From: Loktanella sp. 3ANDIMAR09
Lineage (GTDB): Bacteria > Pseudomonadota > Alphaproteobacteria > Rhodobacterales > Rhodobacteraceae
Assembly (NCBI RefSeq): GCF_001420005.1
Contig: NZ_LJAK01000001.1
Coordinates: 124,001-188,000 of the forward strand
Direction: 5' to 3'
DNA: 64,000 nt
The notes below the pieces were generated by a model, which was not told the origin of the DNA, searched no databases, and was given only the letters and a program-made list of their open reading frames with translations. The position numbers and the translations under genes are program-made. This document shows positions 32,570 through 37,021 of the stretch, one piece after another (the stretch's first letter is position 1; every line of letters starts with the position of its first letter).

Positions 32570-33718
32570 TCAGGCGAAGTAGTCGCGCAGGATGCGGCCA
32601 TAGATGGCCTTGAGCGTCTGGATATCCTGCACGGGGACCTTTTCGTCGACCTGGTGCATGGTTTTGCCGACCAGGCCGAATTCGACGACGGGGCAGTGAT
32701 TTTTCACGAACCGCGCGTCCGAGGTGCCGCCGGAGGTCGACAATTCGGGCATGACCCCCAGTTCGGCCTGCACGGCCTTGCCGATCAGGTCGGACAACGG
32801 GCCGGGCGGGGTGAGGAAACTTTCGCCGCTGACCTTGATCTTCATGGTGATGGCGATGCCGGTGTCCGCCGCGACCGCATCGGCATGGGATTGCAGCCAG
32901 TCGGTCACCGATGCGCCACTGTGGTGATCGTTGAACCGGATGTTGACCGTGCCACGGCAGGACGCCGGGATCACGTTGGTTGCTGGATTGCCCGTGTCCA
33001 TCGTCACGATGGCCAGCGTCGAGGCGTCGAAATGATCGCTGCCCTGATCCAGCGGTTCGGACGCCAGCCGGTCCATCAGCCGCGCCATGGCAGGCAGCGG
33101 GTTTTTCGCCCGGTGCGGGTAGGCGGAATGGCCTTGTTCGCCGGTAAAGGTGATCCAGGCCGTCATCGAGCCGCGCCGCCCGATCTTCATCGCCTCGCCC
33201 ATGTGGTTCGGGCTGGTCGGTTCACCCACCAGGCAATCGGTCATCGCCTCGCCGTTCTGCGCCATCCAGTCCAGCAGCGCGGTGGTGCCGTCGAGCGCAT
33301 CGCCCTCTTCGTCACCGGTGATCGCAAGGATCACTGCACCGTCCGGTGGCGTGTCACGCACAAAATCACAGGCGGCAGCCGCAAAGGCCGCGACACCGGA
33401 TTTCATGTCCGTGGCACCACGTCCCCACAGAAAACCGTCCTTGATGACAGCGCCGAAGGGATCGACGCTCCAGTCATCGGGATTGCCGATGGGCACCACA
33501 TCCGTGTGCCCGTTGAACCCGAAACTGCGATTGGCCCCCTTGCGTCCCCAGCGCGCATAAAGATTGCTGACGCCACCGCGATCCACCCGCGTGCAGTCAA
33601 ATCCGGCCCCTGACAACAGATCCTCCAGCAACAGCAATGCGCCGCCCTCGGTCGGTGTCACAGATGCGCAGCGCACCAGTTGCGCTGTCAGGTCAACGGG
33701 GTCGATCGGGTCAGTCAT
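32570..33718 (-). CDS. dapE: Succinyl-diaminopimelate desuccinylase
   Basis: Zn-dependent M20 hydrolase producing LL-diaminopimelate for lysine and peptidoglycan. Motifs are [19 protein letters not shown] (first Zn ligand), [18 protein letters not shown] (bridging Asp), [22 protein letters not shown] (catalytic Glu) and [14 protein letters not shown]. The dimerisation region has [15 protein letters not shown]. The length is 382 residues and it starts at an ATG. The succinyltransferase dapD of the same pathway is about 5 kb away, also on the minus strand. Confidence 0.96.
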
Positions 33719-33996: not shown

Positions 33997-35601
33997 ATGG
34001 CGACGGCATCGGAACTTTCGATGAACCAGAACGCGTCTGCGGCACAAATGGCGCAGACGATCTTTGGCGACGGCGTGATCGTGGTGGGCGCGTCCTATTC
34101 GGGATCGAGCTATTCTTCGGCGACCTATTCGGGCGGTGACAGCACCAGCCCCGGTGTGGTGCCGGGCGATACGGGCGTCATCCTGTCCACGGGGCGCGCG
34201 TCGGATTTCACCAATTCCCAGGGCTGGGGGAACTGGTCGGGCGACCCGAACCTCAGCACCAACACGTCGACCAACTCGGGCGGACAGAACGGCAACGCGG
34301 ATTTCGAGGCCATTTCAGGCCAGCGCACATTCGATGCATCGTTCCTGACGGTCAATTTCATTCCCACCGGCAATGTCATGTCGATCAAGTTCGTCTTTGC
34401 GTCGGACGAATACCCCGAATACGCGTCGTCGATCTATAACGACGTGGTCGGTGTTTGGGTCAACGGCACGCACATCCCCCTGTCGGTGACGCAAAGTGCT
34501 GCGTCCGTGACGGAAATCAACGATACCGAGAACATCAACCTCTACAAGGACAACACGGGCGATCAATACAACACCGAAATGGATGGTTTCACCGTCAGCA
34601 TGACGCTGACGATCCCGGTCAACTCGGGCCAGGTGAACACGATCAAGCTGGGCATCGCCGACGCCTCTGACAGCAACTACGATTCCAACCTGCTGATCGC
34701 TGGCGACAGTATCCAGACGACGGTCATCGCCATCCAGGACGATGTGACCATCGCACCGGGCGGCACCCAGAACGTCGATCTGCTGGCCAATGACCTGAAT
34801 GCGACCGGCGGCGTGCTGTCGGTGACCCATATCAACGGCGTTGCGGTCAATCCGGGCGACACGGTCATCCTGCCATCGGGACACCAGGTCACCCTGCTGG
34901 CCGACGGCACGGTCGACATCCTGACCACGAACGTCGAGGAAAAGGTCAGTTTCACCTACGAGACCACCAGCACCAACGGGCTGGGCCAGGAGGTGGGTGG
35001 CGATCTTGGATTTGTCACGGTCGACACGGTTCCCTGCTTTGTCGCGGGCACACTGATCCGCACGCCGCTGGGCGACATTCCGGTCGAGACGCTGGAACCC
35101 GGCGATCTGGTCGATACGATGGATGACGGCGCACAGCCCCTGCGCTGGGTGGGACGTCGCACCGTCGCGGCAGAGGGCGCATTGGCCCCCATTGCCATCG
35201 CCGCGAATGCGCTGGGTGAACACGCGGCCCTCATGCTGTCGCCGCAGCATCGCGTGTTGCTGGGCGACCCGCTGTCCAGTCTGCTGTTCGGCGAGGACGA
35301 GGTGCTGGTCGCAGCCAAGGATCTGGTCAACGACCTGACGATCCGCCCCAGACCCGGCGGCGACGTCACCTATCTGCATCTGATGTTCGACCGCCACCAG
35401 GTCATCTGGGCCGAGGGCCTGCCCACCGAAAGTTTCCTGCCCGGCCCCCAGATGAAAAAAGCCTTTGCCCGCGAGGCGCTCGAGGAGATCACCACGCTGT
35501 TTCCCCAGATCGACTGGACCTCTGGCCGTGGCTACGGGCCTGCGGCCCGCCGCACGCTCAAGCGGTTCGAGGCGCGTGTCTTTCGCGGGTCTGCCCTTTG
35601 A
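33997..35601 (+). CDS. Choice-of-anchor L / Hint-domain surface protein
   Basis: A 534-residue protein with three parts. Residues about 20-250 are a choice-of-anchor L domain (GVILSTGRASDF, MSIKFVFASDEYPEYASSIYNDVVGVWVNG). About 245-340 is a beta-rich cadherin/VCBS-like linker (DDVTIAPGGTQNVDLLANDLNATGG). About 345-490 is a Hint_2 domain starting at Cys347 (PCFVAGTLIRTPLGDIPVETLEPGDLV) with LSPQHRVLLGD later. There is no classical signal peptide, so type I or similar export is possible. AAGGGG lies 8 bases before the ATG. Its stop overlaps the TTG start of the next Hint gene. Confidence 0.85.
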   Translation: MATASELSMNQNASAAQMAQTIFGDGVIVVGASYSGSSYSSATYSGGDSTSPGVVPGDTGVILSTGRASDFTNSQGWGNWSGDPNLSTNTSTNSGGQNGNADFEAISGQRTFDASFLTVNFIPTGNVMSIKFVFASDEYPEYASSIYNDVVGVWVNGTHIPLSVTQSAASVTEINDTENINLYKDNTGDQYNTEMDGFTVSMTLTIPVNSGQVNTIKLGIADASDSNYDSNLLIAGDSIQTTVIAIQDDVTIAPGGTQNVDLLANDLNATGGVLSVTHINGVAVNPGDTVILPSGHQVTLLADGTVDILTTNVEEKVSFTYETTSTNGLGQEVGGDLGFVTVDTVPCFVAGTLIRTPLGDIPVETLEPGDLVDTMDDGAQPLRWVGRRTVAAEGALAPIAIAANALGEHAALMLSPQHRVLLGDPLSSLLFGEDEVLVAAKDLVNDLTIRPRPGGDVTYLHLMFDRHQVIWAEGLPTESFLPGPQMKKAFAREALEEITTLFPQIDWTSGRGYGPAARRTLKRFEARVFRGSAL

Positions 35602-36680
35602 ACTGGATCGGCCTGCGCGAGGCACGGACCGCCCTGTTTGACACAGGGGGTCTGGCCACGCCATCGGCACGGCCCGGCGATCTGGACGCGCTGATGGCGC
35701 GCGGGGCACTGATGGTGGACTGTGCGATCCTGCCCAGCCTGACCGAACAAACGTTGCTGTCCTATGCCGCAAAAACGCCTTGGGATACGGCGCTGTCGAT
35801 TGCGCTGTCACCCGAAGGCGTTGTGATCCTGCGGCATCGCGTGGGTCGGTCGCAGCGGACCTACCGCCTGGACACGGGGGTCAAGGAACGCGCCGTTTCG
35901 GTCACCATCGTTTTCAACTGGGACGCGCCAGCCAGACGGGCCAGCCTGTCGGCTGAATTCCCCGACACCGGCGCGTTGGCCTATCGCGTGCTGGATGCGC
36001 CGCTGCCGCCGACCCTGCGCGACGCCCGTCGCATCATGATGGACCGCCGTCAGTGCTATCTTGCCCCTGGCGTCCGCTTTGCCGCGATTGCGACCGATCA
36101 GGTCCCGGTCGGACCGCTGCCATCGCTGGACGGTCAGACGCAGGTCATCACCCAGACAGGCCGTCGCAGCATCCAGTCGCTGCGCCCCGGCGATCTGGTG
36201 CAGACCGCGACAGGCAGCATGGCACAGGTTCGCTGGACCGGTGCGGTGACCTTGCCTGCGCGCGCACGGTTCCGTCCCCTGCGGGTCAAGGCGCCGTTCT
36301 ATGGTGCACTGCGCGACATCGACTGTGCCGCCTGCCAGCAGATCAGGTTTCACCATTCCGCCGTGGACTATTTGTTCGACACCCGCACGGTCATCGCCCG
36401 CGCCGGTGACCTGCTCGAAGGTCTGACACCGCGCCTGCAACCGGATCAGGTGCTTGAAACCTACTGGCATGTCTTGCTGGATCGCCCGGTGCCGATGCAG
36501 ATCCATGGGGTGGCGTGCGAATCGCTGAACGCCCGCGATCTGCTGGCCGACCCTGTCCTGCGGTCATTGTCCGTGCTCAGGAATTTGCCCAAGGAACTGT
36601 TTCCGCAGGACGCCGGACCAGCGCCATTGCGCCTGAAACACTACGAGGTGCGGTCACTGTGTGAATCGCGCGCCGCCTAA
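35598..36680 (+). CDS. Second Hint-like protein with Ser at the nucleophile position
   Basis: A 360-residue protein starting at a TTG that overlaps the preceding stop (TTGA), so translation is probably coupled. The N-terminal half (residues 1-170) is unfamiliar. From about 176, SLDGQTQVITQTGRRSIQSL followed by RPGDLV aligns without gaps to the Hint domain of the upstream protein, but the Cys nucleophile is Ser176 and the downstream G of the CFxxGT block is Gln. FHHSAVDYLFDTRTVIARAGDLL corresponds to the partner's LSPQHRVLL region. It may be a non-cleaving or altered Hint module. Confidence 0.75.
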   Translation: MNWIGLREARTALFDTGGLATPSARPGDLDALMARGALMVDCAILPSLTEQTLLSYAAKTPWDTALSIALSPEGVVILRHRVGRSQRTYRLDTGVKERAVSVTIVFNWDAPARRASLSAEFPDTGALAYRVLDAPLPPTLRDARRIMMDRRQCYLAPGVRFAAIATDQVPVGPLPSLDGQTQVITQTGRRSIQSLRPGDLVQTATGSMAQVRWTGAVTLPARARFRPLRVKAPFYGALRDIDCAACQQIRFHHSAVDYLFDTRTVIARAGDLLEGLTPRLQPDQVLETYWHVLLDRPVPMQIHGVACESLNARDLLADPVLRSLSVLRNLPKELFPQDAGPAPLRLKHYEVRSLCESRAA

Positions 36681-37021
36681 TCGTCGGCGTCGTCGTTTTC
36701 GTCACCCTCGTAGAACGGGGTCATCTGCGCCACGATCACGCTGTTTTCGTCCAGCGCCCGCTGCATCAGCGCACGTTCCTCGTCGGGAATGTCGTGACCT
36801 TCGGCCAGACGTTCATCCAGCGTTCCGTAGCCCGACACGTCCAGCGGTGACAAATCAGCCTGTTTCAGGATCGCCACGGTTTCGCGCACGGCCTCTGCCT
36901 CGTCCACACCGCTGGCATAGCACATCAGCGCGGCCCCGGTTGCGCCCTTTGGCAGACCATCATCCTTGGACCGGCCAACCTCGACCAGCAGCGTATAGAC
37001 CTGTTGCACACGTTTGTTCAT
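36677..37021 (-). CDS. Conserved hypothetical protein
   Basis: A 114-residue soluble protein, helical and acidic at the C-terminus (PFYEGDENDDADD). MNKRVQQVYTLLVEVGRSKDDGLPKGATGAALMCYASGVDEAEAVRETVAILKQADLSPLDVSGYG shows regular alternation and no known motif. It looks like a conserved small Rhodobacterales protein, but I cannot assign a family. Its stop overlaps the stop of the second Hint gene by 4 bases (convergent). The antiporter gene ends upstream of it by 33 bases, so the two may share a transcript. Confidence 0.65.
   Translation of the reverse strand: MNKRVQQVYTLLVEVGRSKDDGLPKGATGAALMCYASGVDEAEAVRETVAILKQADLSPLDVSGYGTLDERLAEGHDIPDEERALMQRALDENSVIVAQMTPFYEGDENDDADD

Follow-up and report, generated by a model that had tools for sequence, protein, structure and literature searches.

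Among the closest described relatives of the system that we examine here are the bacterial intein-like (BIL) domains of type B and the Hog domains of Hedgehog proteins. The first step of the intein reaction centres on Cys1 or Ser1 and on a block-B histidine, His B:10, which has been called the most conserved intein residue (PMC4031507). Type B BILs, which are devoid of block G, only cleave (PMC4031507), and Hog domains use the first acyl shift only (PMC7664689). Hint domains are also among the features that are over-represented in bloom-forming Rhodobacteraceae (PMC12487129). In the open-licence literature, we found no function for the Hint domains of this family, and nothing on pairs that include a pseudo-Hint.

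We will focus on two adjacent genes, ORF1 and ORF2, which lie within a window of 64,000 nucleotides of Loktanella sp. 3ANDIMAR09 DNA, all coordinates given below being positions in this window. In many marine roseobacter-type bacteria, the gene of a probable self-cutter is found directly before a gene carrying a preserved and apparently dead cutting domain. The domains are already known and the chemistry is that of the textbooks; what appears to be new, with respect to the open-licence literature, is that a pseudo-Hint family is conserved, carries an N-domain of its own, is paired with an active-looking Hint and occupies a fixed locus. A dead Hint that is conserved and under selection, next to a live one, would constitute a natural control pair. 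Such a pair would show that the Hint fold is worth keeping without its chemistry, and it makes the role of C-terminal Hint modules, be it export, anchoring or release, directly testable in marine bacteria.

ORF1 (33997-35601, + strand) encodes 534 amino acids, and its organization is the one that an earlier note on this DNA had proposed: a choice-of-anchor L domain, a linker and a complete-looking Hint domain beginning at Cys347. A C-terminal tail follows. In a profile search, the choice-of-anchor L family (NF038133) matched residues 17-238 (34045-34710, +) with 156.1 bits for a cut-off of 27, and Hint_2 (PF13403) matched residues 346-483 (35032-35445, +) with 174.9 bits for a cut-off of 28.4. 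Between these two domains, residues 244-328 (34726-34980, +) make up a weak Ig-like linker, whose Big_9 score is below threshold (19.5 vs 23.6 bits). The tail (35446-35598, +) is about 50 residues long and carries the helix motif ARRxLxxxEAxxL. The AlphaFold2 models of both proteins, built from few alignment rows, are poor outside the Hint halves; with that of ORF1, Foldseek retrieved Hint and intein structures (6y75, 2lwy and 6qaz), and the beta-sandwich matches of the front part are of low value. Like other choice-of-anchor L proteins, ORF1 carries this domain at its N-terminus and a further module at its C-terminus. Those other proteins bear sorting signals at the position of the C-terminal module, whereas in ORF1 the Hint domain replaces the PEP-CTERM, LPXTG or T9SS signal.

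ORF2 (35598-36680, +; 360 amino acids) starts, as had also been noticed, at a TTG located inside the stop codon of ORF1, the two genes overlapping by 4 nt in the sequence TTGA (35598-35601, +). This start is credible, since Trp3 does not vary among the ORF2 orthologues and TTG is likewise the start in the two closest relatives. The N-terminal domain (35598-36101, +) is weakly CBM40/ConA-like: compared with the PDB, a profile of 64 orthologues retrieved 6er2-6er4 (E 8e-5) and the leech trans-sialidase 1sli (E 0.002), and it matched no Pfam family. The CBM40 match to these sialidases is a weak one (25 bits, over half of the domain), and, in contrast to them, ORF2 contains no sialidase. The N-domain is a weak lead for a ConA-type lectin fold, which might bind a ligand.

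The rest of ORF2 consists of a Hint-like domain (residues 173-311; 36114-36530, +) and a tail. Hint_2 matched this domain with 70.7 bits for the same cut-off of 28.4, and it also matched all 16 ORF2 orthologues of the profile alignment; in ORF2, the divergence of the Cys1 end delays the start of the match to profile position 6. The N-domain half of the ORF2 model is uninterpretable and the Hint half alone is usable. There, residues 173-309 superpose on 2lwy, a bacterial intein-like structure (Z 14.4, rmsd 2.2 over 117 residues), and residue 176 falls on residue 1 of inteins and on residue 258 of Hedgehog. According to this model, the three-dimensional Hint fold is kept in ORF2 and Ser176 (36123-36125, +) really occupies the nucleophile position, as the earlier note had predicted. 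The Gln that it had seen in place of a conserved Gly is likewise present (Gln180 of ORF2, opposite Gly351 of ORF1), and its view that an intact Hint module and an altered one are produced together, here by coupled genes, agrees with the Hint_2 matches and with the residue states detailed below. Its gapless alignment of the two Hint domains holds for their N-terminal half, whereas small gaps appear near the end.

The reading that we favour, while holding it tentatively, is that of a cassette of two exported proteins ending in one and the same C-terminal Hint and tail module, which would cleave itself in ORF1 but could not be cut in ORF2. The cassette, often translationally coupled, would be vertically inherited, and its two proteins would follow one plan: a beta-sandwich passenger, then Hint_2, then a short conserved helical tail. 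The ORF1 Hint, catalytically complete at its N-terminal side, would probably cut between Pro346 and Cys347 by an N-S acyl shift, and the choice-of-anchor L part would then be released or handed to a nucleophile. The pseudo-enzyme Hint of ORF2 would be a folded C-terminal module that cannot be cleaved, and therefore the lectin-like N-domain would stay joined to the Hint and the tail.

This cassette is found at one chromosomal place. At the 101 loci examined, the gene order is rnr-dapE-[ORF1-ORF2]-114-aa gene-dapD, and synteny identifies dapE (32570-33718, - strand) and the 114-aa gene (36677-37021, -) as the conserved left and right neighbours. The 114-aa protein, which is kept beside dapE/dapD across Rhodobacteraceae, matched no Pfam family. 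In most of the examined genomes that are devoid of ORF1 and ORF2, dapE and the 114-aa gene adjoin directly, and ORF1 alone is also found at the same dapE locus. In many genomes, a second choice-of-anchor L-Hint gene often stands between the 114-aa gene and dapD (11 such loci are named). A few copies are damaged, one ORF1 by an internal deletion and one ORF1/ORF2 locus by apparent frameshifts, and they would be showing the loss of these genes in progress. A mobile or phage element is unsupported: ORF2 sits in a fixed chromosomal locus, and IMG/VR yielded five contigs with ORF1-like or Hint proteins but no ORF2. Two choice-of-anchor L-Hint genes were seen on provirus contigs that IMG/VR takes from the genomes of isolates, in what is probably host flank.

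The ORF1 and ORF2 profiles were searched in 297 Rhodobacteraceae genomes, with E at most 1.5e-49 for a clear ORF2 and at most 1e-180 for a full-length ORF1. ORF2 was found in 135 of them and full-length ORF1 in 114. Over the 297 genomes, the co-occurrence of the two has a Fisher odds ratio of 12.5 (p 1.4e-21), a value that is uncorrected for phylogeny, the dapE tree meant for such a control being weakly supported and leaving too few supported pairs. Of 289 genomes sampled across the class, only four carry ORF2, all of them Rhodobacteraceae and 3ANDIMAR09 included. The closest named relative found is Loktanella sp. DSM 29012, whose ORF2 is 96% identical. At the 68 loci with adjacent genes, 54 of the distances between the two fall in the range from -4 to +14 nt, and 21 are exactly -4 nt. 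The adjacency is conserved in related genomes; the pair is linked and often translationally coupled, yet not obligatory, because both genes are present in 91 genomes, ORF2 only in 44, ORF1 only in 23 and neither in 139.

These data bear on the most serious competing explanation, which we consider doubtful, namely that ORF2 acts in trans, its pseudo-Hint pairing with the ORF1 Hint or presenting a lectin-like acyl acceptor, to control the timing or the target of cleavage. Slightly less likely still is that the pseudo-Hint protein controls or accepts the self-cleavage of its neighbour so that a surface passenger is joined or released in trans. The conserved adjacency and coupling speak for a trans role, as do the co-occurrence and the preserved dead fold, which has the look of a pseudo-enzyme regulator. 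However, a full-length ORF1 is absent from 44 of the 135 genomes with ORF2, and ORF2 from 23 of the 114 with ORF1; their association may reflect linkage within a single inherited locus; and the residue states remain unchanged when the partner is absent. In particular, those of ORF2 are the same with and without ORF1, and Cys and His are kept in 22/22 ORF1 copies from loci without ORF2. Neither predicted activity state depends on the presence of the partner. The counts speak against ORF2 as an obligate partner, not against ORF2 as a helper, and the two-part system of the earlier note does not hold if it is taken as an obligatory machine; the surface anchoring and the self-processing that it ascribed to the pair are functions that we, too, infer from sequence. 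Residue states that are kept without the partner fit separate jobs for the two proteins, as in the reading that we prefer, with one cleavable and one uncleavable module.

The cleavable module depends on the residues of ORF1, which we counted in 84 copies, the duplicate row of the 3ANDIMAR09 copy being excluded. Cys347 (35035-35037, +), the candidate nucleophile and the sole cysteine of the protein, is Cys in 82/84 copies and Tyr in two. His418 (35248-35250, +), the block-B His within SPQH, is kept in 83/83 orthologues, and His461, Asp465 and His467 are each found in 82/82. ORF1 carries both elements of Hint autoprocessing, a Cys1/Ser1 and a block-B His, and it does not carry the block G His-Asn of inteins and type A BILs: where splicing inteins have His-Asn, 82/82 orthologues have Glu478-Ser479. 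From these residues, the Hint of ORF1 looks capable of cleavage at its N-terminal junction; since it ends in Glu-Ser and not in His-Asn, it looks unable to splice. It is in this respect like type B BILs and Hog domains, with a Hint fold, Cys1 and block-B His and no C-terminal His-Asn, and N-terminal cleavage only is the chemistry that its sequence leads us to expect. Unlike them, it has a Pro at -1, and its Hint is placed C-terminally with a 50-aa tail.

This Pro346 is present in 81/84 ORF1 copies. A Pro at -1 is unusual for an acyl-shift site, and it could make the reaction slow or dead. Its conservation is one argument for an explanation that we judge improbable, in which neither Hint is catalytic today, the Hint and tail of both proteins serve solely for export or anchoring, and something other than catalysis preserves Cys347. 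That 6 of the 12 Hint_2 copies of the 3ANDIMAR09 genome lack Cys1, and hence that the fold often persists in non-catalytic form, points the same way; the near-invariant Cys and His of the 84 ORF1s, maintained even where ORF2 is missing, are, however, hard to explain without chemistry. A self-cleaving ORF1 beside an uncleavable ORF2 remains the reading that we favour.

ORF2 is a different case. At its Cys1 position, the 101 orthologues carry Thr (30), Gly (27), Ser (25), Ala (10), Cys (4), Trp (4) or Leu (1), and this residue has changed at least 12 times within 36 sampled ORF2s. At the block-B His position, which is Gln247 in our protein (36336-36338, +), 81 of the 101 have Gln and 10 have His. 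Thus, neither a conserved Cys1/Ser1 nor a conserved block-B His is found among these orthologues, and ORF2, which differs from BILs and Hog domains in that the catalytic residues are missing altogether, looks like an inactive pseudo-Hint. Cys and His are kept together in only 3/101. These three orthologues form one clade and may be still active, or may represent the ancestral state.

It is very improbable that ORF2 nevertheless has Hint activity, with Ser or Thr as an O-type nucleophile or with some other residue, both proteins then being self-processing. Ser or Thr does occupy position 1 in 55/101 orthologues, Ser1 is among the nucleophiles that inteins are known to use, and other routes are open to inteins that have neither Cys1 nor Ser1 (PMC4031507). 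However, Gly, Ala, Trp or Leu is found in 42/101; the His lost in 91/101 corresponds to His B:10, which is regarded as the best-conserved residue of inteins (PMC4031507); and no conserved Cys takes over, a conserved block-F Cys like that of class 3 inteins being absent from residues 285-314 of the orthologues. The idea that Ser176 is a meaningful alternative nucleophile loses its footing, the position being freely variable and the block-B His lost too.

Nor does the loss of Cys1 set ORF2 apart in its own genome. Five further Hint_2 proteins of 3ANDIMAR09 are without Cys1, with Ser in two, Gly in two and Ala in one, and nucleophile loss appears to be common among Hint_2 proteins and not special to ORF2. 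What distinguishes ORF2 from the other Hint_2 proteins of Rhodobacteraceae is its own clade, its lectin-like N-domain and its fixed dapE locus, and what distinguishes ORF1 is its choice-of-anchor L domain. In the Hint tree, ORF2 forms one clade (support 96/97) and ORF1 another (95/93).

Both genes are under purifying selection. With respect to the nearest relative, dN/dS is 0.036 for ORF1, 0.088 for ORF2 and 0.045 for dapE. Within ORF2, similar constraint acts on the pseudo-Hint and on the N-domain, with 0.078 and 0.099 against the nearest relative and 0.236 and 0.222 against a 72% relative. As selection acts on both ORF1 and ORF2, what is observed here is not due to chance, and a random or decaying reading frame for ORF2 is ruled out by selection together with synteny. 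It is hardly credible that ORF2 is merely a functionless duplicate in decay: its catalytic residues are lost and the gene is gone from some lineages, but clear orthologues in 135/297 genomes, a dN/dS of 0.09-0.23, invariant structural residues and a fixed locus all stand against it.

Coming back to the favoured reading of two exported proteins, no signal-peptide-like start is found on ORF1 or ORF2, which is why the shared Hint and tail would probably be their export or sorting element. The tails are related and helical in both (ARRxLxxxEAxxL in ORF1, Lxx[FY][ED]AxxL in ORF2), and the same tail is found at the end of RTX-Hint proteins in 3ANDIMAR09 and in its genus; the Pfam family, the C-terminal position and the tail motif are common to ORF1, ORF2 and these other Hint_2 proteins of Rhodobacteraceae. 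The 3ANDIMAR09 genome encodes two PrtD-type type I exporters, and no exporter gene lies within the ORF1-ORF2 locus. Because they lack such a start, share their tail with RTX-Hint proteins and coexist with these exporters, both proteins would most likely leave the cell by type I secretion, a route suggested by the company that the family keeps. Finally, many of these proteins end in Ala-Ala (61/101 for ORF2, where it is mostly Arg-Ala-Ala, and 50/84 for ORF1), far more commonly than those of neighbouring genes (3/101 for dapE), and this end could be a sorting signal or resemble a protease tag.
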